A stretch of DNA of 64,000 bases from Zhihengliuella sp. (GTDB lineage Bacteria > Actinomycetota > Actinomycetes > Actinomycetales > Micrococcaceae): positions 62,001 to 126,000 of the forward strand of contig NZ_JAPSJL010000001.1 of assembly GCF_031178195.1 (NCBI RefSeq). Direction: 5' to 3'. The stretch's first letter is position 1, and each line of letters begins with the position of its first letter. The notes under the pieces were generated by a model that saw only the letters and a program-made list of their open reading frames with translations, did not search any database and was not told where the DNA came from. Made by a program: the position numbers and the translations under genes. Positions 5,296-50,339 of the stretch are shown piece after piece.

Positions 5296-6094
5296 GGGTG
5301 ATTCCGTGCACCGGGCCGCGCGCATGCTGGACGCTGCGCTGACGGGCCACGTACTGACCAAGACGGACTTCCGGGTGCCGCAGGTGGCCACCGTGGACCT
5401 GGCCGGGCGGCCGGTCGACTCGGTGTGCGCCCGGGGCAAGCACCTGCTGATCCGGATCGGGACGGACCCGGCGCAGCTGCTGACCATGCACACGCACCTG
5501 ATGATGGACGGCCGCTGGGAGGTCTACGCACCCGGCGAGCGCTGGCGCGTGGCCGGGCACAAGGTGCGCTGCGTGCTGACGAACTCGACCTTCGAGGCGA
5601 TCGGCGTGGACCTCGGGTTCCTGCGGCTCTTCCCCTCGCGTCTGGAGCCGCAGGCGGTGGGGCATCTGGGCCCAGACCCGCTGGGGCGGGACTGGGACCC
5701 GGACGAGGTGCGGGACCGGATGCTGAAGGAGCCGGAGCGGGCCGTCGGGCTGGCGCTGCTGGACCAGCGGAACATGGCCGGCGTCGGCAACATCTACCGT
5801 TCGGAGGCGCTGTTCGTGTGCCGGGTGCACCCCCTGACGCCGGTGGGCGAGGTCCCGGACCTGCCGCGCCTGATCGAGCGCTGCTTCCTGATGCTCCACG
5901 CCAACCGGGACCGCGAGCGGCGCAAGACCACCCCGGCCGAGCTCCGCGAGCCGTACTGGGTGTACCAGCGGGCCGGCCGGCCGTGCTTCCGCTGCGGCAC
6001 GGCGCTGGACCTGCTGCGCATCGGCCCGGTGAAGCTGCAGCAGGACCGCGACGCGTACGTGTGCCGGACCTGCCAGCCGGACCCCGCCGCGTAG
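5288..6094 (+). CDS. nei: Fpg/Nei-family DNA glycosylase (endonuclease VIII-like)
   Basis: Base-excision repair glycosylase/AP lyase of 268 residues. After removal of Met the N-terminus is Pro-Glu-Gly-Asp, with the catalytic proline and glutamate in the expected places. The helix-two-turn-helix region contains NMAGVGNIYRSEALF. A zinc finger closes the protein, with CFRCG and CRTCQ as its Cys pairs around a KLQQDRDAYV hairpin. The GTG start at 5288 lies inside the last codons of lhr, so the two genes are translated together. The same lhr-nei order is known in mycobacteria. It probably removes oxidised bases while Lhr remodels the DNA; that link is inference. Confidence 0.92.
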   Translation: MPEGDSVHRAARMLDAALTGHVLTKTDFRVPQVATVDLAGRPVDSVCARGKHLLIRIGTDPAQLLTMHTHLMMDGRWEVYAPGERWRVAGHKVRCVLTNSTFEAIGVDLGFLRLFPSRLEPQAVGHLGPDPLGRDWDPDEVRDRMLKEPERAVGLALLDQRNMAGVGNIYRSEALFVCRVHPLTPVGEVPDLPRLIERCFLMLHANRDRERRKTTPAELREPYWVYQRAGRPCFRCGTALDLLRIGPVKLQQDRDAYVCRTCQPDPAA

Positions 6095-6294
6095 ACCGGA
6101 CGGCGGCGGCTGGGCGTCCGCTGGCGGCGCGCTCCCAGCTCGCTGCGGATCCGCCGGGAGACTCGCCCCGCCGCGGCCGAGCGGCGTACGTTGTGAACTG
6201 GACGGCGTCCGTCCCGGCACGCCCCGCGTGTGCCGGAGCGGAACGCGCCCGCGCCTCCGACCGGCGCACGAGTGGAGAAACGAGGAGCCGAGAG

Positions 6295-7398
6295 ATGCCC
6301 ACCGTGGGAGTGATGGCCGACCCCGGCCTGCCGGAGATCATCTCCCGTCAGGTCCACGGCGTCGTCGAGAAGAACCTGGCCGCGTACGACGGCGAGGGGT
6401 GGACCGTCGTCGTCGAGCGCGGCGCCCTGCCCCTGAACGACGACGGGGACATCCCGCTCATGGAGCGCTCCTCGGCGCTGCTCTCCGAACGGGGCTGGGA
6501 CTACATCATCTACGTCACCGACCTGCCGCGCACCTACGACGGACAGCCGCTGGCCTACGAGCTCGAGAACGAGACGAACGCCGCCCTGCTCTCGCTGCCG
6601 GCGCTCGGCCTGTGGCGCCTCACCGCGCGCCTGCGCACCCTGCTCACGGACCTCTCGCTCACCCTGCACGAGCGGCAGGCGCCGGAGGAGGAGCGCCGGG
6701 AGTCGAACATCCGGACCCCCGGGGTGCGCACCGCCCACCACGAGGACGACGACGGCCGTGTCTTCGTCACCCTCGACTCCCCCGTGAGCCGGCTGCGTCT
6801 GCTCGCCGGCATGGTCCGGAACAACCGTCCGGGCCGGCTGCTCACGGCGCTCTCGACCTGCATCGCCACCGCCGCCGCGGCCGGCGCCTTCGGCATCTTC
6901 TACACGAGCATCTGGAACATGTCCGATGCGCTGCCCGCCCGCCGGCTGTTCCTCATCAGCATCGTGGCCGTCCTGACGCTGAGCGTCTGGCTGATCGTGC
7001 GCAACGGCCTCTGGACGCGGCGGGCGAGCATCGAGCAGTCCGGCACGGCACGGGTGGGCGTGGGCTCGGCGTCGAACCAGGCCGCGCTGGACAACGCCGC
7101 GACCCTGGTCACGGTGGTCCTCTCCGTGGGGTTCATGTACGCGGTCCTCTTCACGGTGCTGTTCGCCGGCTCCATCACGATCGTCGACTCCGGATACCTG
7201 GAGTCCCAGCTGGAGCACCCCGTCGACGTCGGCGACTACGCCACCCTGTCCTGGCTCGCCGCGTCGCTGGGCACGATGGCCGGCTCGCTCGGCTCCAACT
7301 TCGACAGCGACGCGGACATCCGCGAGGCCACCTACAGCCGGCGGGCGCGGCAGCGGCGCCAGCTCAACGAGGGGGCCGAGGAGGGCGAAGCCGTCTAG
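6295..7398 (+). CDS. Uncharacterised membrane protein with soluble N-terminal domain
   Basis: 367 residues. GAGGAG (6282-6287) sits 7 bp before ATG 6295. Residues 1-120 are hydrophilic and contain WDYIIYVTDLPRTYDGQPLAYE, which looks like a folded alpha/beta domain. Four hydrophobic segments follow from about residue 185 onward (LLTALSTCIATAAAAGAFGIF, LFLISIVAVLTLSVWLIV, LVTVVLSVGFMYAVLFTVLFA and LSWLAASLGTMAGSLGSNF), and the tail is charged. Homologues are common in actinobacteria as hypothetical membrane proteins, but I cannot assign a function. It stands alone, 200 bp after nei and 124 bp before the pseudouridine synthase. Confidence 0.85.
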   Translation: MPTVGVMADPGLPEIISRQVHGVVEKNLAAYDGEGWTVVVERGALPLNDDGDIPLMERSSALLSERGWDYIIYVTDLPRTYDGQPLAYELENETNAALLSLPALGLWRLTARLRTLLTDLSLTLHERQAPEEERRESNIRTPGVRTAHHEDDDGRVFVTLDSPVSRLRLLAGMVRNNRPGRLLTALSTCIATAAAAGAFGIFYTSIWNMSDALPARRLFLISIVAVLTLSVWLIVRNGLWTRRASIEQSGTARVGVGSASNQAALDNAATLVTVVLSVGFMYAVLFTVLFAGSITIVDSGYLESQLEHPVDVGDYATLSWLAASLGTMAGSLGSNFDSDADIREATYSRRARQRRQLNEGAEEGEAV

Positions 7399-9225: not shown

Positions 9226-10242
9226 ATGGCTCAGGATGCAACGGCACAGGATTCCACCCTGCCCTCCCCCTCCCCCGCGCGCACCGCCTGGCAGCAGTGG
9301 CGCATGCTGCGCGAGGAGTCGCTGGCCGCCGAGTTCGGCTGGCTCACGCTGACCAGCTACCAGTGGCTGCCCTCCGCCCCGGCGCCCGTGGAGCTGGTCC
9401 CCGGGCGCTTCGGCGCGGGCCCCGACGGCGCGGTCTTCGAGCCCGACGGCGCAGAGGTCCTCGGATGCGACGACGACGCGCCGGTGACCGCCCCGCTGAC
9501 CCGTGCACTCGCCGAGGGCGAGTCCGTCGACTGGCTGCGCACCCGCGACGTCACGGGTCAGGACACCGTGGTGGAGCTGGGCGTGCGCGGCGGTCGCTAC
9601 ATGGTCCGCACGCATGCGCGCCGGAGCCCCCAGCTGGACGCGTTCGACGGCGTCCCCACGTTCGACTACAACCCCGCGTGGGTGGTGCCCGGTCGGTTCG
9701 AGGCCTACCCGGAGCCCCGGCCCGTGGAGGTCGGCACCTACCGGCCGGACACCCGCCTGGACAAGGTGCTCGCGGGCGAGGTCGTCTTCGAGATGCCGGC
9801 GGCGTTCCCGCACCGGCTGGCCGCCGAGCAGAACCCGGACGGGTCGCTCGCCATCGCCTTCCACGACGCCTCCAACGGGGACACCACCCCGGAGTGGCGC
9901 TTCGTGACGGTCCCGGCCCCCGGTCCCGACGGGACCGTGACCCTCGACTTCAACCGCACGCTCTTCTACCCGTTCGCATTCTCCCAGTTCGCGGTCTGCC
10001 CCCGCCCGCCGGAGGGCAACCGGCTCGAGATCGCCGTCAATGCCGGCGAGCGCTCGGAGCGCCCCGCCCCCACGGGCGGGTTCGCGACCGGCGGGAACCC
10101 CACGGGCGTGAGCACCACCGGTGGGCCGGCCACCGGCGGGAACCCCACGGACGGGAGCACCACCGGTGGGCCGGCCACCGGCGTGGACCCCACGGGCGGG
10201 ACCGCCACCGCCGAGGGTGGCGCCCGCCACACCGGGGAATAG
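9226..10242 (+). CDS. DUF1684 domain protein with Gly/Thr-repeat tail
   Basis: 338 residues. The family core spans about residues 15-270. It begins WQQWRMLREESLAAEFGWLTL and ends in the diagnostic block LDFNRTLFYPFAFSQFAVCPRPPEGNRLEIAVNAGE. The biochemical role of DUF1684 is unknown to me. The last 65 or so residues are a low-complexity extension of GGNPTGVSTTGGPAT repeats, encoded by 45-bp tandem units, that does not belong to the domain. The gene is probably expressed from its own leaderless promoter. It precedes an old-yellow-enzyme gene by 29 bp and may be co-transcribed with it. Confidence 0.85.
   Translation: MAQDATAQDSTLPSPSPARTAWQQWRMLREESLAAEFGWLTLTSYQWLPSAPAPVELVPGRFGAGPDGAVFEPDGAEVLGCDDDAPVTAPLTRALAEGESVDWLRTRDVTGQDTVVELGVRGGRYMVRTHARRSPQLDAFDGVPTFDYNPAWVVPGRFEAYPEPRPVEVGTYRPDTRLDKVLAGEVVFEMPAAFPHRLAAEQNPDGSLAIAFHDASNGDTTPEWRFVTVPAPGPDGTVTLDFNRTLFYPFAFSQFAVCPRPPEGNRLEIAVNAGERSERPAPTGGFATGGNPTGVSTTGGPATGGNPTDGSTTGGPATGVDPTGGTATAEGGARHTGE
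10090..10209 (+). repeat. 45-bp tandem repeats at the 3' end of the DUF1684 gene
   Basis: Two nearly identical 45-bp units (10090-10134, 10135-10179) and a shorter third (10180-10209). All begin GGCGkGrACCCCACGG and encode a GGNPT..STTGGPAT tail. The frame is preserved. Confidence 0.85.
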
Positions 10243-10271
10243 CGGCCGCGCGGGGTGGGTTCGGCCTGAGT

Positions 10272-11378
10272 GTGAGCACACTCTTCAGCCCCGTGACCCT
10301 GTCTACCCCCGACGGCGACGGCCTGGCGCTGCGCAACCGCGCCGTCGTCGCACCGATGTGCCAATACTCCGTGGACGCCGAGGACGGCGTCCCCACCGAT
10401 TGGCACCTGTCCCACCTCGGCGCGCTGGCCGCCGGCGGGTTCGGCCTGGTGATCGCCGAGGCGAGCGCGGTGACGCCCGAGGGGCGGATCTCCCCGCGGG
10501 ACACCGGCCTCTGGAACGACGAGCAGACCCGCGCCTGGCGGCGCATCACGGACCTGATCCGGGCCAACGGCTCGGTCCCGGGAATCCAGTTGGCCCATGC
10601 CGGCGCGAAGGCCTCCACACAGCCGATGCTGCCGGGCCTCTCCGAGTCCACGGTCCCGGAGGACGACGGCGGCTGGCCGACCGTCTCCTCCTCGGTCTCG
10701 GACGCGTTCGGGCTCGCCCCGGCGCGGGAGCTGACCGGGGAGGAGATCGAGCAGCTGATCGCCGATTGGGCCGCCGCCGCCCGCCGCGCCGACGAGGCCG
10801 GCTTCGACGTCGTGCAGATCCACGCCGCCCACGGCTACCTCCTCCACCAGTTCCTCTCGCCGCTGGTCAACACGCGGACCGACGAGTACGGCGGTTCCTA
10901 CGAGAACCGCACGCGCCTGGTGAAGCGGATCGTCGAGGCCGTGCGCGATGCGTGGCCGGCGCACAAGCCGCTCGCGGTGCGCTTCTCCGGCACGGACTGG
11001 ACCGACGACGGCTGGACCCTGGCGGAGACGGTGCGCCTGGCCGGGGAGCTGCGCGAGCTCGGCGCCACGGCGTTCGACGTCTCCTCCGCCGGCATCGGCC
11101 GCTACTCGGGTCCGAGGTCGGCCCCCGGCTACCAGACCGCGCTCGCCGCGGCGGTGAAGGCCGGACTGGAGGGCACGGACTCGTTCGTGACCGCCGTCGG
11201 GCTGATCACCACCGGCGTGCAGGCCGAGCACGTGCTCGTGACCGGTCAGGCCGACGGCGTCGCGGTCGCCCGGGCGGCCCTGGAGAACCCGCACTGGGCA
11301 GCCGTGGCCGCTCGCGAGCTCGGCGTCCCGGCCGAGGAGAACCCACGCGCGACGCCCCTCTGGCGCGGACACTGGTGA
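10272..11378 (+). CDS. NADH:flavin oxidoreductase, old yellow enzyme family (YqjM-like)
   Basis: FMN-dependent ene-reductase of 368 residues with a TIM-barrel fold. Motifs include LRNRAVVAPMCQYS near the N-terminus (its Cys is the redox-tuning residue of the YqjM class), the HLGALAAGGFGLVIAEASAV strand, IQLAHAGAKAS, the substrate-binding HAAHGYLLHQFLSPLVNTRTDEYGGS with the His-x-x-His pair, and the FMN phosphate site VAVARAALENPHWA. GTG 10272 gives the expected N-terminus. It reduces activated C=C bonds; the physiological substrate is not evident from context. Confidence 0.93.
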   Translation: MSTLFSPVTLSTPDGDGLALRNRAVVAPMCQYSVDAEDGVPTDWHLSHLGALAAGGFGLVIAEASAVTPEGRISPRDTGLWNDEQTRAWRRITDLIRANGSVPGIQLAHAGAKASTQPMLPGLSESTVPEDDGGWPTVSSSVSDAFGLAPARELTGEEIEQLIADWAAAARRADEAGFDVVQIHAAHGYLLHQFLSPLVNTRTDEYGGSYENRTRLVKRIVEAVRDAWPAHKPLAVRFSGTDWTDDGWTLAETVRLAGELRELGATAFDVSSAGIGRYSGPRSAPGYQTALAAAVKAGLEGTDSFVTAVGLITTGVQAEHVLVTGQADGVAVARAALENPHWAAVAARELGVPAEENPRATPLWRGHW

Positions 11379-39232: not shown

Positions 39233-41395
39233 CTAGAAGGGGATGGGTGTCGGTTCGGGTGGGTCGAGGGGCAGGAGTGCTGTCTGGTCGGCTGTTTCGG
39301 GGTGGAAGTAGGGGTTGCGCATCAGGGGTCTCTGCGGGTCGACGGTCGCCGGGGGTCGCCAGAGTGGGATGCCGGTGCTGGTGTCGATGTCCCAGGTGCT
39401 GTTGTCGGCCAGGGTGTGGTGGAACAGGCAGCACAGGGCCCCGTTGGACACGTCGGTGGCCCCGCCTTGGTGCCAGGGGATGACGTGGTGGGCCTCGCAC
39501 CAGGTCGCCGGGACCGTGCAGCCGGGGAACGTGCATCCCCGGTCGCGGATGGTCAGGGCGCGGCGTTGGGCGGCAGTGAAGGTCCGTTGGGCCCGCCCGA
39601 GGTCCAGGACCTGGCCGTGGCCGCCGAGCACGGCCGGCAGCACCGCCGCATCGCAAGCCAGTTCCCGCAGCTGCGCCGGCGGCATCATCGGGGTATAGAC
39701 GCCCCGACTGACGGGCAGCCGCCACGACGAACCACCCGACGGCTCATCCGATAACTCGCCCGACGGCTCAGCCAGTGAGTCGCCCGGTGGGTCATCCGGT
39801 GAGTCGCCCGGTGGGCCGGGTCGGGCGGCCGGGCCGCTGAGCCCGTTGGGCCCGTCGATTCCGTTCGCCTGGTGCAGCAGGGTCTGGTGGTCGATGGTGA
39901 CCATGACGACGGGGCGTTGGCCGCCGGTGGAGGGCAGCCGGTCCGTCGCCAACGCGATGTTCAGGGCGGCGAGGATCCCGTCGAGCTCCTGCTGCGCCCT
40001 CGACCGATCATCCGCGAGCGCGGCGCCGGGCTCGGGGAGGAACGCCACCGGGACCGCCGAAGCACCGGGACCCGGATCAGAATCAGGATCAGGGCCGGAG
40101 CCAGCGGAGCCAGCGGCGCCGGCGGTCGTCTCGCCGTCGCCGGCCGCGGAGCCGCCATGATCCTTCTCGCGCTCGTGCTCGTGCTCGTGCTCACGCCCGT
40201 GCTCGTGTCCGTTGGCGTCGATGCCGACGCCGCTCCTCGTGCCCGTCCGGGCCGTCTTCTCCGTGGCGGCCGCGAAGTCGCCACGCCCGTTCTCGTTCTC
40301 GTTCTCATTCTCGTGTCCGTCGACGCCGCCACCGGCGTCCGTTCCCGTCCCGCCGGCCGTGGAGCCAATGAGGCCCGCATCGGCGGCCGCGTCGGAGAGC
40401 GGACCGTCTGCTCCCGGCCGGTCCGTGTCGGCGGCGGGCCCGCCGGCGGCAGGTCCCTTCGCTCCGGTCGCCTCGTCGTTGTTGTCGTTGTTGTTGCGGG
40501 TGGTGCGGGGGTTGGTGGCGGCGCCGGTGACGGTGCGGAGGATCTCGAACTGCGCGGTCGTGACGTTCAGGTGGAACCGGTGCAATCCCTGCCGCCGGCC
40601 CTTGTAGAACAGTCCCTGCTGGGACTGCTTGACCGCCGCGGAGGGCTCGAGGCCGTCCTGGTCGATCGCGACCTCCCACTGCTGGGCCACGGCCTCGACA
40701 GTGCGCGGATCGAAACGCCGGGCCGCCTGCGCGAGGTTCTCCTCCATCGCCTCCCACATCCGCACCGCGTCCGGGCCGAGCTGTCCGGCCCGCGGGCCCA
40801 CCCGGTCCAGGCAGCGCACCGCGATCACCGCAGCCTCCGCGGAGACCTCCCCGGCGACAGCAGCCTCACCCAGGTGCGGGTACCTCGGCACCAACGCCTC
40901 ACCGGTGAGCGCACGGCGGGGCAGCAACGACCCGGCCAGGTTCAGGCGCCGGTTCGTCTCCGTGGTCGTGACGCGTTCGGCGTGCCGGTACCAGTCCGCG
41001 GTGCTCTTGAACTCCGACAACCCCCGCCCCGTCCCGCCAGCCCCGGCCCCGGCGAGATCGGCCTCCTCCGCGACCCGCGCCCCCAGCACCCGCCCGAAAT
41101 CCGTGCCCCGGCCCACACCCTCGAGCACGTGCACCAGCCGGGCCCCCGACCCCGGATCCCACGGACCTTCGCAGACCGCCTCGGCCGTCTCCGCGAGAAG
41201 CTCCCGAACCACCACACCCAAGGCCTCCCACCGCTCCACCAGGCCAGAGCGCCCGAGCGTCGAGCCTGCGGCCACGGTGGACGCCGCCGTGCCGGTCGAC
41301 GCGGAAGAAACAGGCGCGGCAGCCGACGCGGCGTCTGCAGCTGCCGCTGCTGCCGCAGACGCTCCGCCCGCCCCATCCGCTCCGGTGAAATCCAT
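39233..41395 (-). CDS. DUF222/HNH endonuclease-motif protein with hexanucleotide repeats
   Basis: 720 residues. The DUF222 (13E12-like) region lies in the first half (RLNLAGSLLPRRALTGEALVPRYPHLGEAAVAGEVSAEAAVIAVRCLD). The C-terminal HNH motif is CTFPGCTVPATWCEAHHVIPWHQGGATDVSNGALCCLFHHTLAD, with Cys zinc ligands and His-Asn-His. Between them is a charged, repetitive linker with NENENENG and HEHEHERE runs. Such proteins are abundant multicopy genes in actinobacteria, possibly mobile or repeat-associated nucleases; their role is unproven. GAGGA precedes ATG 41395; ATG 41416 is an alternative. Confidence 0.85.
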   Translation of the reverse strand: MDFTGADGAGGASAAAAAAADAASAAAPVSSASTGTAASTVAAGSTLGRSGLVERWEALGVVVRELLAETAEAVCEGPWDPGSGARLVHVLEGVGRGTDFGRVLGARVAEEADLAGAGAGGTGRGLSEFKSTADWYRHAERVTTTETNRRLNLAGSLLPRRALTGEALVPRYPHLGEAAVAGEVSAEAAVIAVRCLDRVGPRAGQLGPDAVRMWEAMEENLAQAARRFDPRTVEAVAQQWEVAIDQDGLEPSAAVKQSQQGLFYKGRRQGLHRFHLNVTTAQFEILRTVTGAATNPRTTRNNNDNNDEATGAKGPAAGGPAADTDRPGADGPLSDAAADAGLIGSTAGGTGTDAGGGVDGHENENENENGRGDFAAATEKTARTGTRSGVGIDANGHEHGREHEHEHEREKDHGGSAAGDGETTAGAAGSAGSGPDPDSDPGPGASAVPVAFLPEPGAALADDRSRAQQELDGILAALNIALATDRLPSTGGQRPVVMVTIDHQTLLHQANGIDGPNGLSGPAARPGPPGDSPDDPPGDSLAEPSGELSDEPSGGSSWRLPVSRGVYTPMMPPAQLRELACDAAVLPAVLGGHGQVLDLGRAQRTFTAAQRRALTIRDRGCTFPGCTVPATWCEAHHVIPWHQGGATDVSNGALCCLFHHTLADNSTWDIDTSTGIPLWRPPATVDPQRPLMRNPYFHPETADQTALLPLDPPEPTPIPF
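40165..40208. repeat. Hexanucleotide repeat GCTCGT in the HNH gene
   Basis: Runs of GCTCGT with minor interruptions encode the His-Glu repeats on the minus strand. Gain or loss of six-base units would keep the frame. Confidence 0.8.
40288..40315. repeat. Hexanucleotide repeat GTTCTC in the HNH gene
   Basis: Four to five units of CGTTCT/CATTCT encode the Asn-Glu run NENENENG on the minus strand. Confidence 0.8.
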
Positions 41396-41587
41396 GTACC
41401 CATCCTCGCCCGCCATCAGGTGGGGCGCCCGGACGGCCGGCACCACTGTGCACGGCAACGCCCGGCAACAGACCTGTGGAGGACAAGTCGGCGTCCTCGC
41501 CTGATTCTGGGCATGGCACTGCCCGCGGCCCCGGGCGAGGACCGGGAACTGCGGACAGAGATACGCCGGATTGATTCGTCGACGGCC

Positions 41588-43069
41588 TCAGTAGTTGATG
41601 ACCTGCGGCGCTCCCAGCTGCTTGAGCCCCTCGACCCCGAATTCGAGGCCGAAGCCCGACTGCTTCATGCCGCCGAACGGCATCCGCGGATCCACGGCGC
41701 CGTGCTTGTTGATCCAGACCGTGCCGGCCTCGATCCGCGCGGCGACCTCGAGGGCAGCCTCCCGATTCGACGACCAGACCGAGCCGCCGAGCCCCACCTC
41801 GAGGGCATTGGCCATCCCGACGGCGTCGTCGACGCTGGAGTACTTGATGATCGGCAGCGCCGGCCCGAACTGCTCCTCGGCGACCAGCGGGTTGTCGTTG
41901 TCGATGTCCGCCACGAGCGTCGCCGGGTAGAAGTAGCCGGGAGCGGAACCGTCCGGGTTCCCACCGGTCAGGACCCGCGCTCCGGCGTCCCTGGCGGCCT
42001 GCACCAGCTGCGCGACGACGTCGTACTGGGCCCGGTTCTGCAGCGGTCCCAGGACGTTCTGCTCCTCGAGGCCGACGCCCATCGGCATCGCCTCGGCGAC
42101 CTCGACGAGGGCCGCGCAGACGTCGTCGTACACGTCCTCGTGGACGTAGAGGCGCTTGAGCGCCGCACAGGTCTGGCCCGTGTTGATGAACGCGCCCCAG
42201 AAGAGATCCTCGGCGATCGCCCGCGCGTCCACGTCCGGCAGGACGATGCCGGCGTCGTTGCCGCCGAGCTCCATGGTCACGCGCTTGACCGTATCCGCGG
42301 AGTCCTTGATGATCCTCTTCCCCGCGGCCGTGGAGCCGGTGAACATGATCTTGGCGACGTCCGGGTGCTCCACCAGCAGCGCGCCGACGTCGCGGCGGCC
42401 GGCCACCACGTGCAGCACGTCCGCGGGGAGAGCCGTGCTCATCACGTGCGCCAGGGCGAGGACGGACAGCGGCGTGTTGCCGGACGGCTTGACCACCACC
42501 GCGTTGCCCATGCGCAGCGAGGGCGCGATCTGCCAGACGGAGATCATCATGGGCCAGTTCCACGGCCCGATCGCCCCGACGACGCCGAGCGGCCGGTAGT
42601 GGAGCTCCGCCCGGCCGCCCTCGTCGTCGAACAGGACCTCTGGCTCCAGCTCGAAGCCGGCGGTCGCGCGCAGCCAGGCGACGCAGGCCCCGACCTCGAA
42701 GCGGGCGTTGGGGCCGTTGAGCGGCTTGCCCTGCTCGCGGGAGAGCAGCTCGGCGAGGGCCTCCGCATTGGCCTCGACCGCGTCGGCGGCGGCGTTCAGG
42801 GCCGCGCTGCGCTCGGTGTGGCTGCAGGCTCCCCACGCCGGCTGGGCGGCGCGGGCCGCAGCGATGGCGGCCTCGAGGTCCTCGGCGGTCGCCTCGGGGG
42901 CACGTCCGACGACGGCGCCCGTCGCCGGGTCGAGGATCTCCCGGCCGCCGGTGGCGGGCTGGACGGCGTCCAGCAGGTCGGCGGCCGTGCTGAAGCGGGC
43001 GGATCCAGTGGACTGGTCCCGGGTCGGCTGGGGTGACTGGGCCTGGGGTGACTCGGTCTCGGTGGTCAT
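41588..43069 (-). CDS. NAD(P)+ aldehyde dehydrogenase (aromatic-amine pathway)
   Basis: 493 residues of the ALDH superfamily. Present are the oxyanion Asn in GPWNWPMM, the cofactor motif FTGSTAAGKRI, the general base in MELGGNDAGIV, the nucleophile Cys in FINTGQTCAALKR, and EEQFGPALPIIKY. In this locus it should oxidise the phenylacetaldehyde or hydroxyphenylacetaldehyde made by the amine oxidase to the acid, as FeaB does in E. coli. AGGAGC precedes ATG 43069. It lies 166 bp after the APC permease on the same strand and is probably co-transcribed with it. Confidence 0.92.
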   Translation of the reverse strand: MTTETESPQAQSPQPTRDQSTGSARFSTAADLLDAVQPATGGREILDPATGAVVGRAPEATAEDLEAAIAAARAAQPAWGACSHTERSAALNAAADAVEANAEALAELLSREQGKPLNGPNARFEVGACVAWLRATAGFELEPEVLFDDEGGRAELHYRPLGVVGAIGPWNWPMMISVWQIAPSLRMGNAVVVKPSGNTPLSVLALAHVMSTALPADVLHVVAGRRDVGALLVEHPDVAKIMFTGSTAAGKRIIKDSADTVKRVTMELGGNDAGIVLPDVDARAIAEDLFWGAFINTGQTCAALKRLYVHEDVYDDVCAALVEVAEAMPMGVGLEEQNVLGPLQNRAQYDVVAQLVQAARDAGARVLTGGNPDGSAPGYFYPATLVADIDNDNPLVAEEQFGPALPIIKYSSVDDAVGMANALEVGLGGSVWSSNREAALEVAARIEAGTVWINKHGAVDPRMPFGGMKQSGFGLEFGVEGLKQLGAPQVINY

Positions 43070-43235: not shown

Positions 43236-44804
43236 TCATCGGCCGGTCCCGGCGCCGATCCTTTCGTAGACGTCCGGACGACGACGGCGCAGGCCGAGTG
43301 CCCAGAGCGAGGCGGCGGCGCCGGCGGCCAGGACGAGGGCCGGCAGCAGCCAGCTCAGCACGCCGCCCTCGGAACCGATGAGGACCCCGAAGTTGGCGAG
43401 GATCATGAACAGCAGCACCAGCAGGGCGGCGCCGGCGAGCAGCGGCGCGTAGAACGCAGTCCACGCGCCCTCGCTGCGGGGGTGCCGGCGGAAGAAGCCG
43501 ACCACCGCGAACGACGTCAGGGTCATCAGCGCGACCAGTCCGAGCGCACCCATGTTGGTCAGCCAGGTGAAGAGCGTGATCACGGGGAACAGTGCACCGA
43601 GCTCGTGGCCGGCCCCCGCGACGGCGAAGGCGACGATGACCGCGAGGGCCACGGCCGACTGGACCAGCGACCCGGCCACGGGCGCCTGGGCGCGGTTGGT
43701 GCGGGCGAGGATCCGCGGCAGGACGCCCTCGCCCCCCATCGAGAAGAGGTAGCGGGCAATGACGTTGTGGAACGCAATGAGGGCAGCGAGCACGCTGGTC
43801 ATGAACAGCAGGTTCCCGAGGACGATGAACCATCCCGCCACCCGGCCCTCCAGGAACACGAACATCAGGTCCGGGCCGAGCTCGGCGGAGCGGGCGACCA
43901 CGGCGGAGTCGCCCTCGCCGACGGCCATGGCCCAGGCGGAGAATGCGTAGAACAGAGCGATCACGACGATCGCGACCAGGGTGGCCCGGCGGGCGGTGCT
44001 CCGCGGGTCCTCGACCTCCTCGTTGTAGATCGCGCCGGACTCGCACCCCATGAAGGCGGCGATGCTGAAGACGAGCGCGGCGCCGACGCCCGCCGAGAAG
44101 AGCGCGCCCGGCTCGAGCGATGCGGTGGTGAGGCCCTCGGGGGCGGCCCCCAGCGCGACGACGTCGTACACCAAGACGATCAGGAACTCGAGGGCCACGA
44201 CGAGGCCGAGGACCTTGGCCGAGAGGTCGACCTTGTTGATGCCGAGGAGTCCGACGACGGCCCAGCCGGCAAGCGCCGTCGTCCACCACGGGACCGTGAC
44301 GCCGAACGTGCCGGCCAGGAACGACGAGAGCACGAAGCCGAGCATCCCGTAGATGCCGATCTGCATGGCGTTGTACGCGACGAGCGCGACCCAGGCGGAG
44401 CCGACGCCGGCCCAGCGGGTCAGGCCGAGCGAGATGTAGGAGTAGAACGCGCCCGCGTTGGTGACCCAGCGGCTCATGGCGGTGTAGCCGACGGCGAAGA
44501 CCATGAGGGCGACGCCGAGGACGAGGAAGGACAGGGGGATGCCGAGGAGGCCGGTCACCGCGTAGTTGCTGGTGACGCCGCCGGCGACCACCGTCAGCGG
44601 CGCGGAGGCCGCGATGATCATGAAGGCCAGCGCCGGGACGCCGAGACGACGGCGGCCCAGGCCCGCGGAACCGTCGGTGCCGGGTGCGGCGGTGCCGTGC
44701 GCGGCGGCGTGCAGGGCGTCGGCCGCGGCGGGAGACGTGGACGACGATGCGCGCAGGGTGGGTCTGCGGCTAGGTCCTGCTCCGGTTCGAGTCGCTTCGG
44801 GCAT
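43236..44804 (-). CDS. APC-superfamily amine/amino-acid permease
   Basis: 522 residues with about twelve to fourteen hydrophobic segments after a 50-residue polar N-terminus. APC marks include IIAASAPLTVVAGGVTSNYAVTGLLGIPLSFLVLG, YTAMSRWVTNAGAFYSYISLGLTRW, FMGCESGAIYNEEVEDPRSTARRA, and the later MGGEGVLPRILARTNRAQAPV. Its place between the FeaR-like regulator and the aldehyde dehydrogenase suggests uptake of phenethylamine or tyramine. GGAGG lies before ATG 44804. The 88-bp gap upstream holds the promoter element shared with the amine oxidase. Confidence 0.92.
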   Translation of the reverse strand: MPEATRTGAGPSRRPTLRASSSTSPAAADALHAAAHGTAAPGTDGSAGLGRRRLGVPALAFMIIAASAPLTVVAGGVTSNYAVTGLLGIPLSFLVLGVALMVFAVGYTAMSRWVTNAGAFYSYISLGLTRWAGVGSAWVALVAYNAMQIGIYGMLGFVLSSFLAGTFGVTVPWWTTALAGWAVVGLLGINKVDLSAKVLGLVVALEFLIVLVYDVVALGAAPEGLTTASLEPGALFSAGVGAALVFSIAAFMGCESGAIYNEEVEDPRSTARRATLVAIVVIALFYAFSAWAMAVGEGDSAVVARSAELGPDLMFVFLEGRVAGWFIVLGNLLFMTSVLAALIAFHNVIARYLFSMGGEGVLPRILARTNRAQAPVAGSLVQSAVALAVIVAFAVAGAGHELGALFPVITLFTWLTNMGALGLVALMTLTSFAVVGFFRRHPRSEGAWTAFYAPLLAGAALLVLLFMILANFGVLIGSEGGVLSWLLPALVLAAGAAASLWALGLRRRRPDVYERIGAGTGR

Positions 44805-44865
44805 GGGGGCCTCCTGGGGATAGCGGTCGACGCGACGGTGCGCCGAATCCCAGTGTGGTCCGCCT

Positions 44866-44890
44866 CACTTTATTTTCTCTAGCCGTAGAG
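44866..44890 (-). promoter_or_regulatory. Shared amine-island promoter element, permease copy
   Basis: Read on the minus strand: CTCT-ACGGCT-AGAG, then AAAATAAAGTG. TAAAGT is a plausible -10. The element ends 61 bp before ATG 44804 and begins 2 bp past the AraC stop codon. It matches 46995-47020 at nearly every position. Confidence 0.7.
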
Positions 44891-44892
44891 CG

Positions 44893-45840
44893 TCAGTGGC
44901 TTGCCACTCCGTGCACGCCCTTGCGGTAGGCCGCCGGCGAGGCGCCGTAGGCTGTCCGGAAGGAGCGGCTGAAGTGGGCGGCGTCGATGAGGCCCCAGCG
45001 GGCGCCGATCGCGCCGACCGGCACCTCGGCCTGCAGCGGGTCGGCGAGGTCGCGGCGGCAGTTCTCCAGTCGGCGGGTGCGGATCCACTCGGCGACGGTG
45101 TGGCCGGAGTCGGCGAACAGCTTGTGCAGGGTCCGCGTGGACATGTAGTGCGCCGCCGCGACCAGGCCGGGCGAGAGGTCCGGGTTGCCGAGCTGGCCCT
45201 CGATGAAGTGCTGCACGCGCCGGAGCTGGCGGCCGCGGGAGAGCGCCTCGGAGGTGTCGCGGCTGCCGATCTCGTCCGCGAGGAGCGTACCGAGCAGGTC
45301 CACGGTGTTGGTCGCCAGCCGGTGGCCGATCGGACCGTCGAGCGTGGGCAGGAGTCCGCCGATCTGCCGCAGGAACGGCCCGATCGCTCCGCCGAGCCGC
45401 TGGTCGGAGCCCATGGCGACGGCCGTCAACTCGGCCACGTCCGGCGCCGAGAGCCCGAGCATGTGCTGCGGGAACATGAGGACGAAGGCAGAGAACTCCT
45501 CCTCGTAGGTGATGGTGTAGGGCCGTTGGGTGTCGTAGATCGCCAGGTCCCCGGGGCGCAGCACCGTCTCCCGGCCATCCTGCGCCAGGAGCCCCGTCCC
45601 ACTGAGCTGGATGCTGAGCTTGTAGAAGCCGCGCCGCTCCTCCGCGATGCGGGCAGGGGTCCGCTCGACGCGCTGCGGCGCCGCGTCGATCCGCATCATG
45701 CCCACGTCGGCCACTGTCCCGCCGCCAACGCTGCCGCGGAAGCCGCCCCCGGTCACGGGGCGCGCCTCCAGGGGCACGAACGAGTTCGAGACGAGTCGCT
45801 GCCAGGCGTCGAAGTCGGTGGCGGTGTGTAGCTGGTACAT
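44893..45840 (-). CDS. AraC-family regulator, FeaR-like
   Basis: 315 residues. An N-terminal AraC-binding-like (cupin) domain contains FYKLSIQLSGTGLLAQDGRETVLRPGDLAIYDTQRPYTITYEEEFSAFVLMFP, typical of the FeaR/TransActivator group. Two C-terminal HTH motifs follow (LVAAAHYMSTRTLHKLFADSG and IGARWGLIDAAHFSRSFRTAYGASPAAYRK). E. coli FeaR activates tynA and feaB, and this gene sits between equivalents of both. It probably activates the permease-dehydrogenase and amine oxidase promoters. A 10-bp palindrome, AGGGCGCCCT, lies just before its start. Confidence 0.88.
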   Translation of the reverse strand: MYQLHTATDFDAWQRLVSNSFVPLEARPVTGGGFRGSVGGGTVADVGMMRIDAAPQRVERTPARIAEERRGFYKLSIQLSGTGLLAQDGRETVLRPGDLAIYDTQRPYTITYEEEFSAFVLMFPQHMLGLSAPDVAELTAVAMGSDQRLGGAIGPFLRQIGGLLPTLDGPIGHRLATNTVDLLGTLLADEIGSRDTSEALSRGRQLRRVQHFIEGQLGNPDLSPGLVAAAHYMSTRTLHKLFADSGHTVAEWIRTRRLENCRRDLADPLQAEVPVGAIGARWGLIDAAHFSRSFRTAYGASPAAYRKGVHGVASH

Positions 45841-45934
45841 GAGGGCGCCCTGTGGTATGGATCACGAGTGGATGTAGCCCCAATGTAGACAACGCGGGCA
45901 GGCTTGTCACACCCAGCCCTCCCGCGCGCTGCCC

Positions 45935-46543
45935 CTAGGAGCCCTGCCGGACCTCCGGTCGGAGGTGGCCGAGCTGCACGCCCAGCTGCTGCTCGAGGTG
46001 CCCGACCGAGTTGAACGACGTGTCCAGCACGGCCGCGCCCTGCGCGCCGAGCAGGAAGTTCAGGAGGGACTCGACGGCGGGGTCGACATCGAGGTCGGGC
46101 CGGATCTCGCCCGCTGCCATCCCCTCGCGCATCCAGGCGCGCATCCGGCCGCGCCAGGTCAGCATGGCGCCGTCGTTGATCTCGGCGAGCCCGGGCTCGT
46201 GCAGCGCCAGCTGCCAGAACGGCAGCACCACGCGGGCTTCGTCGAGACGCTCGGCGTCCAGCGGGAGGACCTCGCGGGCGAACCGCTCCAGGGCGAGCAT
46301 GCCGTACGCGTCGGCGACCGACCGGTCGATCCGGCGGTTCGTCTGCTCGAAGACGTACGTGTAGGTGGCGCGCGCGAGCTCGGTCTTGGTGGGGAAGTAC
46401 GGTTTCAGGGCGCCATTGGCGAACCCCGCTTCCGCGGCGACGTCCCGCAGCGTGAGCCCATCGAGCCCGCGCCGGGCGACCACCCTGCAGGCGGCCTGGG
46501 CGATCTCGTCGCGACGGGCCGCATGGTCGACGATCTTGGGCAT
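45935..46543 (-). CDS. TetR-family regulator (BetI-like), first paralogue
   Basis: 202 residues. The N-terminal HTH is [47 protein letters not shown]. The ligand domain ([42 protein letters not shown] ... [15 protein letters not shown]) resembles BetI. TAGGAT lies six bases before ATG 46543, so the message is probably leaderless. It is divergent from the amine oxidase across 540 bp. It is clearly paralogous to the TetR gene at 49745-50326; the two bracket the oxidase. Its ligand may be the amine or aldehyde. Confidence 0.9.
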
Positions 46544-46555
46544 GACGACATCCTA
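46544..46555 (-). promoter_or_regulatory. -10 element of a leaderless transcript (first TetR)
   Basis: TAGGAT on the minus strand (46555-46550), six bases before ATG 46543. Confidence 0.5.
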
Positions 46556-46582
46556 AGTCCGCGACCGCCGCGAGGCTCCCGC

Positions 46583-46637
46583 GAGATGCCGCTCGAGCAC
46601 CGGTTTCGCCCCGGAAACCGTGCTGGAGGGGCATCTC
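46583..46637. repeat. Long imperfect inverted repeat (REP-like hairpin)
   Basis: Arms of about 24 bp run from GAGATGCC at 46583 to GGCATCTC at 46637, closing on a GCCCCG loop, with two mismatches and one bulge. Its right arm overlaps the first 30-bp tandem unit. Confidence 0.7.
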
Positions 46638-46719
46638 ACAGGGGCGGCGGGGCTGGACCGGCATCTCACAGGGGCGGCGGGGCCGGACAGGCATTTCACG
46701 GGGTCGGCCGGGCCGGACC
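46630..46719. repeat. Three 30-bp tandem repeats upstream of the amine oxidase
   Basis: Units at 46630, 46660 and 46690, each starting GGCATyTCAC and ending GGGCyGGAC. The first two differ at two positions. Units abut without spacers. Confidence 0.85.
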
Positions 46720-46992
46720 GGGCGCCCCGCTGCCCCACCTGTGCCACTACGGCATCTCACGGAGCCCTGCGGCATCGAGGGGATCCCGGGCGGGCGTCCG
46801 CCCGCGGCGACCGCGAAGCCCGGGACGCCTCGAAGTCGCACTCGTGCAGCCTCTCCGCGCCCAGGGGCTGCATGATCGCGACGCCGATGCATCAACCCTG
46901 CAGAGTTGCGCCGCCGACGGAACCAGCCTGCAACACGGCGACGCCGACAGCCCCTCCGACCCGCCCCTTGCCACCTCCGGGCCCGGTACGTA

Positions 46993-47020
46993 TTCTCTAC
47001 GCCAAGAGAAAATAAAAGTG
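46993..47020 (+). promoter_or_regulatory. Shared amine-island promoter element, amine oxidase copy
   Basis: TTCTCT-ACGCCA-AGAGAA (46993-47010) is a perfect dyad, followed by AATAAAAGTG. It ends 63 bp before ATG 47084. If TAAAAG is the -10, the dyad occupies the -35 to spacer region, fitting either an activator or a TetR-type repressor. Confidence 0.7.
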
Positions 47021-47083
47021 GCTCGCATCACAGGTCGGTGCGACGGCCGCCACTCCGCACGCCACATCACTCCTGGAGGAACC

Positions 47084-49177
47084 ATGTGCAGCCCCGCCTC
47101 GCCCCCGTCGCTCGCGACCGATCCGTCCGATGAGACCGGTGCCGTTCCGGCAGCCATCGAGCCCGGCGTGTCCAACGGGTCCGACGGGTCCAATGGGTCC
47201 GACGGGTCCGACGGCGCCTATCGGCTCCCGACCGCCGAGGAGATCGCCGCCGTCCGCGACCTCCTTCGACGCGAAGGCCAGCTGACGGACGCGCACCGGG
47301 TCGCCTACCTGGGCCTGCTCGACCCCCGCCGTGGCCCCGCGGCGGATCGCGCCCCCGCAGCTCGTCGCTTCCGGGTCTTCACCCTGAACTCGGCCGACGG
47401 CACGGCCGCGGACCTCGTGGTCGACCAGACGGCGGACCGCGTCGAGTCCGTGACCGCCCTGGACACCGCCGAGACCGGCGAACTGCCCGTCATGGAGCAG
47501 GAGTTCGCCAGGGTCGAGGAGATCCTCGCCGCCGACACGGACTGGCGGGCAGCCATCGCCAAGCGCGGTCTGGAGCTGGCCAAGGTGCGCGTGGCACCGC
47601 TCTCGGCCGGCTTCTACGACTACCCGGAGGAGCGCGGCACCCGCATCCTGCGCGGCCTCGCCTTCTACCAGGAGCACGAGACCGACTCGGCCTGGGCGCA
47701 CCCGATCGACGGGCTGGTCGCCTACGTCGACGTCGTCCGCGGGCGGGCCACACGCGTGCTGGACAGCGCCGTCGTACCCGTCCCCCAGGAGCACGGGAAT
47801 TACACGGACCCGTCGCTGACCGGCGAGCCGCGCACCACGCAGCGGCCCATCAGCATCACCCAGCCGGAGGGCCCGTCCTTCACGGTCACGGACGGCAACC
47901 ACGTGGAGTGGGAGCGCTGGAGCCTGGACGTCGGCTTCGACATGCGCGAGGGCCTGGTCCTGCACAACATCTCCTTCGACGACAAGGCGCCCGACGGCGA
48001 CGTCCGCCGGCGCCGCATCCTCAACCGGGCGTCGATCGCCGAGATGGTGGTCCCCTACGGCGACCCGTCGCCGGTACGGAACTGGCAGAACTACTTCGAC
48101 ACCGGCGAGTACCTGATCGGATCCTGCGCGAACTCGCTCGAGCTCGGCTGCGACTGCCTCGGCGAGATCACCTACCTCTCCCCCGTGATCGCGGACAACT
48201 TCGGCAATCCGCGCACCATCCGCAACGGCATCTGCCTGCACGAGGAGGACTGGTCCATCCTGGCCAAGCACTCGGACCTGTGGAGCGGCGTCGAGTACAC
48301 CCGGCGCAACCGGCGCCTCGTGATCAGCTTCTTCACCACCGTGGGCAACTACGACTACGGCTTCTACTGGTACCTCTACCTGGACGGCACGATCGAGTTC
48401 GAGGCGAAGGCCACCGGCATCGTCTTCACCTCCGCGCAGCCGGACGGCGACTACCCGTACAGCTCCGAGCTGGCCCCCGGACTGGGCGCGCCGTTCCACC
48501 AGCACCTGTTCGGCGCGCGGCTGGAGTTCGCGCTCGACGGCGGCCCCGGCCGAGTGGTCGAGGAGGAGGCCGTGCGCCTGCCCCTGGGGCCGGACAACCC
48601 GCGCGGCAACGCGTTCACGCGGAAGCACACGGTGCTCCGGCGGGAGTCGGAGGCCGTCCGGGACACCAGCATGGAGACCGGACGGACGTGGCTGGTGCAG
48701 AATCCGGAATCGATCAACCGGCTGGGCGCCCCGGTCGGCTACAAGCTCCACCCGGAGGGGAACCCGACGCTGCTCGCCGACCCCGGCTCCTCGGTGGCCC
48801 AGCGCGCGGCGTTCGCCACCCGGGCCCTCTGGGTCACGCCCTACGACGAGTCGCAGAAGTACCCGACCGGCGACTTCGTGAACCAGCACCCGGGCGGGGC
48901 CGGCCTACCGGAGTGGACCGCCGCCGACCGGAGCATCGACGGCGAGGACCTGGTCCTCTGGCACACGTTCGGCCTGACGCACTACCCCCGGGTGGAGGAC
49001 TGGCCGATCATGCCCGTGGACGCCACGGGGTTCAAGCTGCGCCCGGAGGGGTTCTTCGACCGCTCGCCGGTGCTGGACGTGCCGGCTCCGGCGACGGCGC
49101 ACTGCGCCTCCACTCCCGGGGCCGGGGCCGCCGGCGAGTCCGGGGCGGGGCAGTGCGGCTGCGACTCGCAAGGATAG
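47084..49177 (+). CDS. tynA: Copper-containing primary amine oxidase (TPQ type)
   Basis: 697 residues. It oxidises primary amines to aldehydes, releasing NH3 and H2O2. The TPQ precursor is Tyr423 in TVGNYDYG, the catalytic base is Asp339 in YFDTGEYL, and the copper ligands are His472 and His474 (HQHLFG) and His633 (GLTHYPR). Every one is offset by 41 from Arthrobacter globiformis phenylethylamine oxidase (382, 298, 431/433, 592), so the fold is the same without indels in between. The N-terminal extension includes five 9-bp repeats (SDG/SNG), and a Cys-bearing tail (HCAST...QCGCDSQG) closes it. GGAGGA precedes ATG 47084. Confidence 0.95.
47171..47215 (+). repeat. Five 9-bp tandem repeats in the amine oxidase N-terminus
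   Basis: Units TCCrAyGGG encode Ser-Asn/Asp-Gly five times in the flexible extension ahead of the conserved domains. Confidence 0.85.
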
Positions 49178-49806
49178 CCGTCGCGCTGCTCGGCTGCGCG
49201 ACGGCGGCGGCCCACGTGGCGCTCCTGCCGGACATGGGCGCCCGCCACGGCTGGGCAGCGGCCGTGCTGATGGCGGCGGTGGCGCTCCACTGCGCGGGGT
49301 CCGCGCTCCACGCGGCCGGCCTGCGGCGCCGTCGTACGACGGCGCACGCCGCACCCGCCGCTGCGTGCGGCGGCGAACTCCCGGCGACCCTGCGCCGGGT
49401 CACGACGCCGTCCGGCCCGAGGCCCTGCCCTCGCTCCCTGCTCCACGTGCACGGGTGCGCGGCCGCGATGGTACTGGTCCACGCCGCGCTGGTGCTCGGT
49501 CTGCCCGGCCACGCGCACGCCGGCGGACACGGCGGCGGACACGGCTTTGGGCACGACGCCGGCCACAGCGGCGGGATGCTTGCGATCCTCGGCCTCGAGC
49601 TCGCGCTCGCGCTCTGCTGGGCCGCCGGGTGGGCCCGGAGCCGCAGCCTCCCCGCGGCACGGGGCCCCGCGGCACGGGTCCCCGCGGCACGGGTCCTCGC
49701 GGGACGGTCGCCGGGCCGAGCAGGAGGGTGGACGGGCTCCGGGGTCAGCCGCGGAGCAGGTGCAGCAGCGAGTCGACCTGCCCGCGCAGCTGGTGGGCGG
49801 AGTTGA
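49153..49806 (+). CDS. His-rich four-helix membrane protein coupled to the amine oxidase
   Basis: 217 residues from GTG 49153, which overlaps the amine oxidase by 25 bp. Hydrophobic segments lie at about 6-25, 34-56, 98-118 and 142-160. Between the third and fourth is [20 protein letters not shown] with six His (120-138), and further His and Cys lie in or near helices (HC at 46-47, HVHGC at 98-102). No known family is recognised. A metal-binding, possibly copper-delivering role is inferred from the neighbour only. The last 60 bp overlap the convergent TetR gene, and 15-bp repeats encode PAARV in the tail. Confidence 0.6.
49654..49698 (+). repeat. Three 15-bp tandem repeats in the His-rich protein gene
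   Basis: Units GCGGCACGGGkCCCC at 49654, 49669 and 49684 encode [16 protein letters not shown] fragment of a fourth follows. Confidence 0.8.
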
Positions 49807-50326
49807 ACGAACCGTCGGCCAGGGCACCGGCCTGCGCGCCGCTGATGAAATTCAGAACCATCTCCGTGACGCCGTCGACCGAGACGTCCGCGCGGACCTC
49901 GCCGTCGGCCATGGCCTCGCGCAGCCAGGTGCGCATCTGCAGGCGCCACGACGCCGTCAGGGCGTTGCCGAGGGCAGCGAGCTCCTGGTCGTGCAGCGAC
50001 ATCTGCCAGGCCGGGACGAGGACCCGGGCGAAGGCGAGGCGCTTGTCATCCAGTGGGAGCAGCTCGAGGACGAAGAGGCGGAGCGCCTCGATGCCGAAGT
50101 GGCCGTCGACGGCCGTGGCGATGCTGGCGTTGGCGCGGTCCCGGGCGTGACCGAAGGCGGCCCGGGCCAGGGCGGACTTGCTCGGATAGCAGCGGGCCAT
50201 GGTCTGCCGGCTGACGCCGGCCTCGGCCGCGACGTCGGCCAGGGTCATTCCGTCGAAACCGCGGCGGGCCACGACCGCCGTGACCGCCTCGGAGTACTCG
50301 AGGGGGCGCAGTTCTAGATGAGGCAT
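49745..50326 (-). CDS. TetR-family regulator (BetI-like), second paralogue
   Basis: 193 residues. The HTH is EAVTAVVARRGFDGMTLADVAAEAGVSRQTMARCYPSKSAL. The ligand domain parallels the first TetR segment by segment (FVLELLPLDDKRLAFARVLVPAWQMSLHDQELAALGNALTASWRLQMRTWLREAMADGEVRADV, then [19 protein letters not shown]), so the two are paralogues flanking the amine oxidase. I start at ATG 50326 because TATGAT lies seven bases upstream; a longer start (50338) would fall within that hexamer. Converges on the His-rich protein gene with a 62-bp overlap. Confidence 0.88.
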   Translation of the reverse strand: MPHLELRPLEYSEAVTAVVARRGFDGMTLADVAAEAGVSRQTMARCYPSKSALARAAFGHARDRANASIATAVDGHFGIEALRLFVLELLPLDDKRLAFARVLVPAWQMSLHDQELAALGNALTASWRLQMRTWLREAMADGEVRADVSVDGVTEMVLNFISGAQAGALADGSFNSAHQLRGQVDSLLHLLRG

Positions 50327-50339
50327 GCCGATTATCATA
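50327..50339 (-). promoter_or_regulatory. -10 element of a leaderless transcript (second TetR)
   Basis: TATGAT (50339-50334 on the minus strand) and seven bases before ATG 50326. Confidence 0.6.

Follow-up and report, generated by a model that had tools for sequence, protein, structure and literature searches.

The window (the 64,000-nucleotide stretch of DNA analysed here) carries two divergent transcripts for amine catabolism, a permease/dehydrogenase transcript and a copper amine oxidase gene, and nearly the same short stretch of DNA lies upstream of both. Which protein reads this shared element, and what would its binding do to the two transcripts? The initial annotation presented the element as a promoter element of a common regulon, controlled by the FeaR-like AraC protein or by one of the TetR paralogues. 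The prediction of a regulon comprising the permease/dehydrogenase transcript and the amine oxidase is supported here, and the choice of regulator is narrowed: TetR1, the product of the adjacent TetR-family gene, is strongly favoured, and the AraC protein is disfavoured. It is highly likely that the shared element is the operator of TetR1; we infer binding, the direction of regulation and the ligand from sequence comparison.

Genes of the locus

The minus strand of the window encodes an aldehyde dehydrogenase (41588..43069; Pfam Aldedh, 481.6 bits), an amino acid/amine permease (43236..44804; Pfam AA_permease_2), the FeaR-like AraC-family protein (44893..45840; Pfam AraC_binding_2 and HTH_18) and TetR1 (45935..46543; Pfam TetR_N and TetR_C_6), the proposed repressor for both operators. 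The helix-turn-helix domain TetR_N is present in TetR1 with 41.7 bits against a cut-off of 24. In the equivalog test, the AraC protein scores 147.1 bits with the NCBIfam FeaR model, under the cut-off of 199. The copper-containing primary amine oxidase (CuAO; 47084..49177, plus strand; Pfam Cu_amine_oxid) scores 836.5 bits with the NCBIfam primary-amine oxidase model (cut-off 651). TetR2 (49745..50338, minus strand) is a second TetR paralogue, 45% identical to TetR1.

Two further frames were noted in the window. Just 3' of the oxidase gene, the segment 49190-49650 is open (part of the 47908-49806 ORF) and contains a hydrophobic stretch and a His/Gly-rich segment; it is possibly linked to copper supply. 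The protein encoded at 39233-41458 (minus strand) looks by eye like an HNH endonuclease type, and its Asn/Glu and His/Glu runs are suggestive of a variable linker.

The shared element in the window and in the genome

The pattern CTCTACGsCwAGAGAAAATAAA is located at 44890-44869 (minus strand) and at 46995-47016 (plus strand). The permease-side stretch (CTCTACGGCTAGAGAAAATAAA-GTG, 44890-44866, minus strand) and the oxidase-side stretch (CTCTACGCCAAGAGAAAATAAAAGTG, 46995-47020, plus strand) differ by two substitutions and one inserted A, as the initial annotation described (agreement at all but three positions). The distances of 61 and 63 bp to the start codons were also given correctly. The ATG codons are at 44804 and 47084, and a GGAGG-type ribosome site is located before each of them.

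The pair had been called very unlikely to arise by chance, which is overstated for the bare pair. Its best ungapped 25-bp identity is 21, and among nearly 2000 random pairs of 150-bp stretches from the window, one pair reached the same value. The bare pairwise match was rejected as proof. By itself the pair is suggestive, not decisive; the decisive evidence is comparative.

A search of the whole genome had been proposed. When up to 3 mismatches to the 22-bp pattern were allowed, only the two sites were detected in the 3.15-Mb genome, and the control gave 0 matches. The 14-bp dyad alone, also with up to 3 mismatches, shows no enrichment in the window (12 found against 12.1 expected); this count is the chance expectation, and the dyad alone was dropped as a marker. 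A looser palindrome pattern gave 23 matches in the five genus genomes against 24 in the control, none of them at the known sites, because its gap is one base too long for the genus. According to a scoring matrix trained on 22 sites, all from outside the genus, both window sites score 24.8 bits. With the same matrix, the next unrelated score in the window is 5.5 bits, and the best of 20 shuffled windows is 11.2 bits.

Occurrence of the element in relatives

A search with the AraC protein at E 1e-30 gave matches in 90 of 149 genomes, and from these relatives 38 stretches were taken. A further 80 named loci were taken from a scan with a TetR1 alignment, as the best 80 of the matches listed. After 10 of 119 stretches were dropped as duplicates, the merged set contained 109 non-redundant stretches, 99 with TetR1 and ten with AraC but without TetR1. 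Among the matches listed, the TetR1 subfamily is found across Micrococcaceae, Cryobacterium and Brevibacterium. For 400 shuffled 360-bp stretches, the best score exceeded 6.9 bits in about 1% and 10.7 bits in about 0.1%.

The element is conserved in related genomes, as expected from the initial annotation. By the rule of at least 12 bits upstream of either TetR1 or the oxidase, 96 of the 99 TetR1 loci have a site and three (L063, L145 and L196) lack one. Of the 94 loci with CuAO, 92 have a site of at least 12 bits upstream of this gene. In the first set, TCTAC-N5-[TG]AGA followed by A-rich sequence was found in each of the 27 oxidase promoters, in 23 cases as TATTCTCTAC. The aligned sites show dyad symmetry with two centres one base apart. 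The genus set consists of five genomes; in the four others the element is found near the oxidase, and in two of them also before the permease.

The strict motif TATTCTCTAC-N6-AGAAAA, with at most one mismatch, gave 51 matches in 50 of the 149 family genomes, and the reversed-pattern control gave 0 in the same genomes. TetR1 (E 1e-50) was detected in 68 of the 149. The strict motif is present in 50 of these 68 genomes (absent in 18) and in 0 of the 81 genomes without TetR1 (Fisher p 9.5e-25), and 50 of the 51 matches are within 600 bp of TetR1. All 94 CuAO loci, collected by AraC or TetR1, also contain TetR1. Since the oxidase is always accompanied by TetR1 in this set, co-occurrence cannot separate TetR1 from the oxidase. 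In four loci (L046, L140, L141 and L194) the operator remains with the oxidase though TetR1 is 2-4 kb off. L063 has no CuAO in its stretch; a flavin-containing amine oxidase (9715-11217, minus strand) is found there, with a 25.5-bit TetR1-type site (11184) about 120 bp ahead of its likely start, as if the regulator kept its role while the type of enzyme changed. In TetR1, the recognition-helix region (NGA-KPYF) is invariant in 22 homologues but for one position, and such a near-unchanged region is expected for a conserved operator.

Beside the TetR1 homologue of Streptomyces flaveus (L208), a TCTACAGTTGTAGA dyad scoring 16.5 bits was observed at about 6657, upstream of a divergent PLP-dependent decarboxylase (5065-6510, minus strand). 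From the sites of L208 and L063 we infer, and only infer, amines as the ligand, to which both point. A second, partial site (TTTTTCTAC / GTAGAAAAA; 8-22 bits) was observed near tetR1, in the oxidase-tetR1 gap, in L062, L067, L070, L073 and L078, and it possibly serves autoregulation. The distance from the oxidase operator to tetR1 is 451 bp in the window and is often within about 150 bp in relatives. Approximately three tandem copies of a 30-bp unit are present between tetR1 and the oxidase at 46630-46721. The long gap and the tandem copies suggest an expansion of the spacer.

Promoters and the identity of the binder

At the oxidase, the predicted -35 TTGCCA (46968..46973, plus strand) is located 17 bp before the predicted -10 TATTCT (46991-46996, plus strand). 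The putative TetR1 operator (TATTCTCTACGCCAAGAGAAAATAAA, 46991..47016, plus strand) begins on this -10, which forms its first six bases, and covers the expected start of the predicted promoter. Among the 92 aligned oxidase promoters (for 7 of the 92 operators the opposite strand gave the best score, and their alignment was left unchanged), TTG precedes the TATTCT position in 77, with a spacer of 17 (49 promoters) or 18 (28 promoters), and exact TATTCT is present in 58. Part of the conservation of the oxidase site is that of the -10. Repressors typically cover the -10 and start, as predicted here, and this placement suggests that the oxidase promoter is active by default and blocked by TetR1.

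At the permease, the putative operator (CTCTACGGCTAGAGAAAATAAA, 44869..44890, minus strand) is placed differently. The predicted -10 CACACT (44852..44857, minus strand) is located 11 bp past the downstream end of the operator. Thus, the equal distance of the two copies to the start codons, which had been taken as evidence, is probably uninformative, because at the oxidase the operator and the predicted -10 overlap, at the upstream end of the operator. For the same reason 'promoter element' is inaccurate: the element is a putative operator with a different place relative to each predicted promoter. The permease operator starts 3 bp past the stop codon of araC, so that read-through from araC is possible.

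It could be argued that the likeness of the two sites reflects sigma-factor recognition and not an operator, as TATTCT fits a -10 and TTG is found at the expected distance in most oxidase promoters. The permease copy, however, lacks the TATT part and reads ACGCTCTACG, the predicted -10 of the permease is elsewhere, at an offset common to relatives, and the conservation extends well past the hexamer. In relatives, a similar element was also found by inspection upstream of the predicted -35 of araC. We regard promoter similarity as the least probable explanation of all. TetR2 as the binder, alone or jointly with TetR1, is also highly improbable. It is near the oxidase in all five genus loci, and 45% of its sequence is identical to TetR1, but TetR2 is a best match in the 5 genus loci only and in no other operator-bearing locus. 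In addition, the recognition-helix region of TetR2 differs from that of TetR1 (versus SRQTMARCYPSK).

The FeaR-like AraC protein would activate both transcripts through the shared element if it acted on the model of E. coli FeaR and its targets tynA and feaB; a passage of PMC4640556 states that FeaR regulates tynA and activates feaB. The gene araC is located between both transcripts, and FeaR is its nearest named family. Nevertheless, the element is absent beside all ten FeaR-like araC genes without a TetR1 neighbour (upstream of araC, permease and dehydrogenase; best score 1.7 bits). When these ten stretches were scanned whole, weak matches were found in two of them, off the araC-dehydrogenase genes (L058, 12.3 bits; L049, 9.7 bits, 191 bp before another permease). 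In six of the ten cases the genome carries TetR1 elsewhere; thus, the araC-only loci test 'not AraC' and do not test 'only with TetR1'. Conversely, 22 loci have TetR1 while AraC is missing from the fetched stretch, and 20 of them carry the element. Sites of AraC-family proteins are usually direct repeats, not dyads. A direct repeat of about GNCAAG-N15-GNCAAG is indeed found in the permease/dehydrogenase upstream regions, in 53 of 120 at spacer 15; the reverse-complement, reversed and complement controls gave 5, 7 and 2, and no other spacer from 9 to 24 gave more than 15. Eight loci combine AraC and a dehydrogenase in a stretch without TetR1, and all eight have the repeat before the dehydrogenase, as expected if AraC reads it; among oxidase upstream regions it is present in just 2 of 94. 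Taken together, a role of AraC as the reader of the shared element is very unlikely, and TetR1 remains the preferred binder.

The FeaR-like AraC protein probably uses the direct repeat, with its 21-bp period, as a site other than the shared element; this assignment is drawn from the pattern counts. By pattern, the repeat is absent in 19 of 60 AraC loci and is present in 6 of 16 loci without AraC in the stretch, which speaks against a close tie between the two. As a genome-wide marker in the five genus genomes it gave 75 matches against 104 in the control; the repeat carries weight at promoters only. The repeat of the window is GGCAAG-N15-GGCTAG-N21-CACACT. The distal half-site GGCAAG (44900..44905, minus strand) is within the 3' end of araC. 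The proximal half-site GGCTAG (44879..44884, minus strand) is the middle of the TetR dyad CTCTACGGCTAGAG, and thus the permease site carries two superposed signals. The predicted -10 CACACT is 27 bp past the start of the proximal half-site. In 36 of 54 repeat-bearing promoters, CANNNT is found at the fixed offset, and in 8 it is one base nearer.

CRP/GlxR-like boxes

A third type of signal is present on the same promoters. At the oxidase, the CRP/GlxR-like box GTGGCTCGCATCAC (47018..47031, plus strand), of the form GTG-N8-[CT]AC, is located 3' of the operator. Of the 92 oxidase promoters, 70 have GTG-N8-[CT]AC in this position or on the -35; the next best spacer gave 12, and 200 shuffles gave a mean of 1.9 and a maximum of 6. 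At the permease, the box GTGAGGCGGACCAC (44855..44868, minus strand) overlaps the predicted -10, and GTG-N8-CAC is found in 27 of the 54 repeat-bearing promoters (next best spacer, 13). The araC promoter, with -10 TACATT (45887-45882) and -35 GTGACA (45910-45905) predicted by inspection on the minus strand, has the box GTGATCCATACCAC (45852..45865, minus strand). Upstream of araC, GTG-N8-CAC is present in 57 of 77 stretches with TetR1 and in 0 of 10 without.

The GlxR/CRP consensus of Actinobacteria is given in the text of PMC7999487 as TGTGA-N6-TCACA. The GTG-N8-CAC boxes of the window have the exact spacing of this consensus. Their match to it is incomplete, and they are located either on the predicted -10 or 3' of it. 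A CRP-type protein is encoded in the genome (275.9 bits to PDB 3h3u). A CRP/GlxR-type protein probably adds global control via these boxes.

Proposed circuit and its wiring across the family

According to the circuit that we propose, a TetR1 dimer would bind TCTAC-N5-(T/G)AGA and the adjoining A-rich DNA without inducer, and the inducer is probably an amine or its aldehyde. TetR1 would cover the -10 and start of the oxidase and, at the permease/dehydrogenase transcript, the region between the activator site and the -10. Both transcripts would be blocked, and the inducer would release TetR1. The oxidase promoter has a good predicted -35 and -10, and release alone may suffice. The permease promoter has a poor predicted -10 and seems to need the FeaR-like AraC protein too. 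Since the direct repeat overlaps the TetR1 operator, both proteins should compete at the permease.

Besides the oxidase operator, a TetR1-like site of at least 10 bits is found at araC in 47 of 77 stretches, at the permease in 4 of 53 and at the dehydrogenase in 1 of 57. The dehydrogenase case is L175, with no AraC in the stretch. The four with a permease site are the window, L011, L012 and L146. In L146, and likewise in L133, a divergent tetR1 copy shares the site; thus, a permease site downstream of araC occurs in the genus only. It is known from three species, and in the 2 of 5 genus genomes without a permease in the locus, the second site is also missing. The araC sites are weaker (about 10-22 bits). 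We treat them as TetR1 sites on two grounds: they fit the TetR1 consensus, and they are absent from the ten AraC stretches without TetR1.

In a tree of 74 AraC rows (three AraC rows with stops or too short were left out), the permease site occurs nowhere outside the genus clade (5 rows, support 99/98). The araC sites are present in 48 rows at 9 bits, none of them in the genus clade. As neither site is present in 23 rows, and about 10 changes are needed to explain the araC label, the araC wiring is likely, though not certainly, ancestral. We give about even weight to the possibility that, in the genus, the second operator moved from the araC promoter to the permease promoter and merged with the AraC repeat, by which a cascade was rewired into direct competitive control. 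If this is true, the wiring at the araC promoter in many relatives would be a cascade in which the TetR protein represses the activator, and in the genus, repressor and activator would be mutually exclusive on one composite permease site.

Comparison with known systems

KstR-like systems consist of a TetR-family repressor and a divergent catabolic gene whose promoter is covered by the operator. TetR1 is similar in having TetR_N and a BetI-type C-terminal domain, a small putative dyad operator that covers the predicted -10 and start, and an adjacent, divergent target. The targets are different, however: here they are the amine oxidase, the permease and, in relatives, araC. The model scores of TetR1 are 31.3 bits for KstR (cut-off 280), 54.6 for ScbR (150) and 42.9 for BetI (201.3), and thus TetR1 is no equivalog of those.

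The FeaR/tynA/feaB system of E. coli shares with this locus a FeaR-like AraC protein, a copper amine oxidase and an aldehyde dehydrogenase. In contrast to that system, the oxidase promoter here has a putative TetR operator and hardly ever the AraC repeat. A common AraC site at the oxidase and dehydrogenase genes was not found, as the putative repeat is present in 53 of 120 permease/dehydrogenase regions against 2 of 94 oxidase regions. The closest solved sequence to TetR1 is PDB 2NX4 (E 8.2e-38), a TetR-family protein whose molecule name gives no function. Its recognition-helix region, YTNGALSHYFAGK, is unlike that of TetR1, so that the operator may differ.

A literature search, with subscription papers largely outside its coverage, found neither a functional study of the TetR1 subfamily nor a description, in these bacteria, of a copper amine oxidase under TetR control. 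TetR repressors acting from a dyad over the promoter are a well-known type of system; the regulon and the wiring in the genus appear new.

Significance

A likely operator, its targets and a testable circuit are now assigned to the TetR1 subfamily. Bacteria of this kind include soil and cheese-surface species exposed to biogenic amines. The comparison separates three superposed controls on the same promoters, those of TetR1, the FeaR-like AraC protein and a CRP/GlxR-like protein. Because the same operator occurs in two wirings, it becomes directly testable how a repressor-activator circuit evolves.
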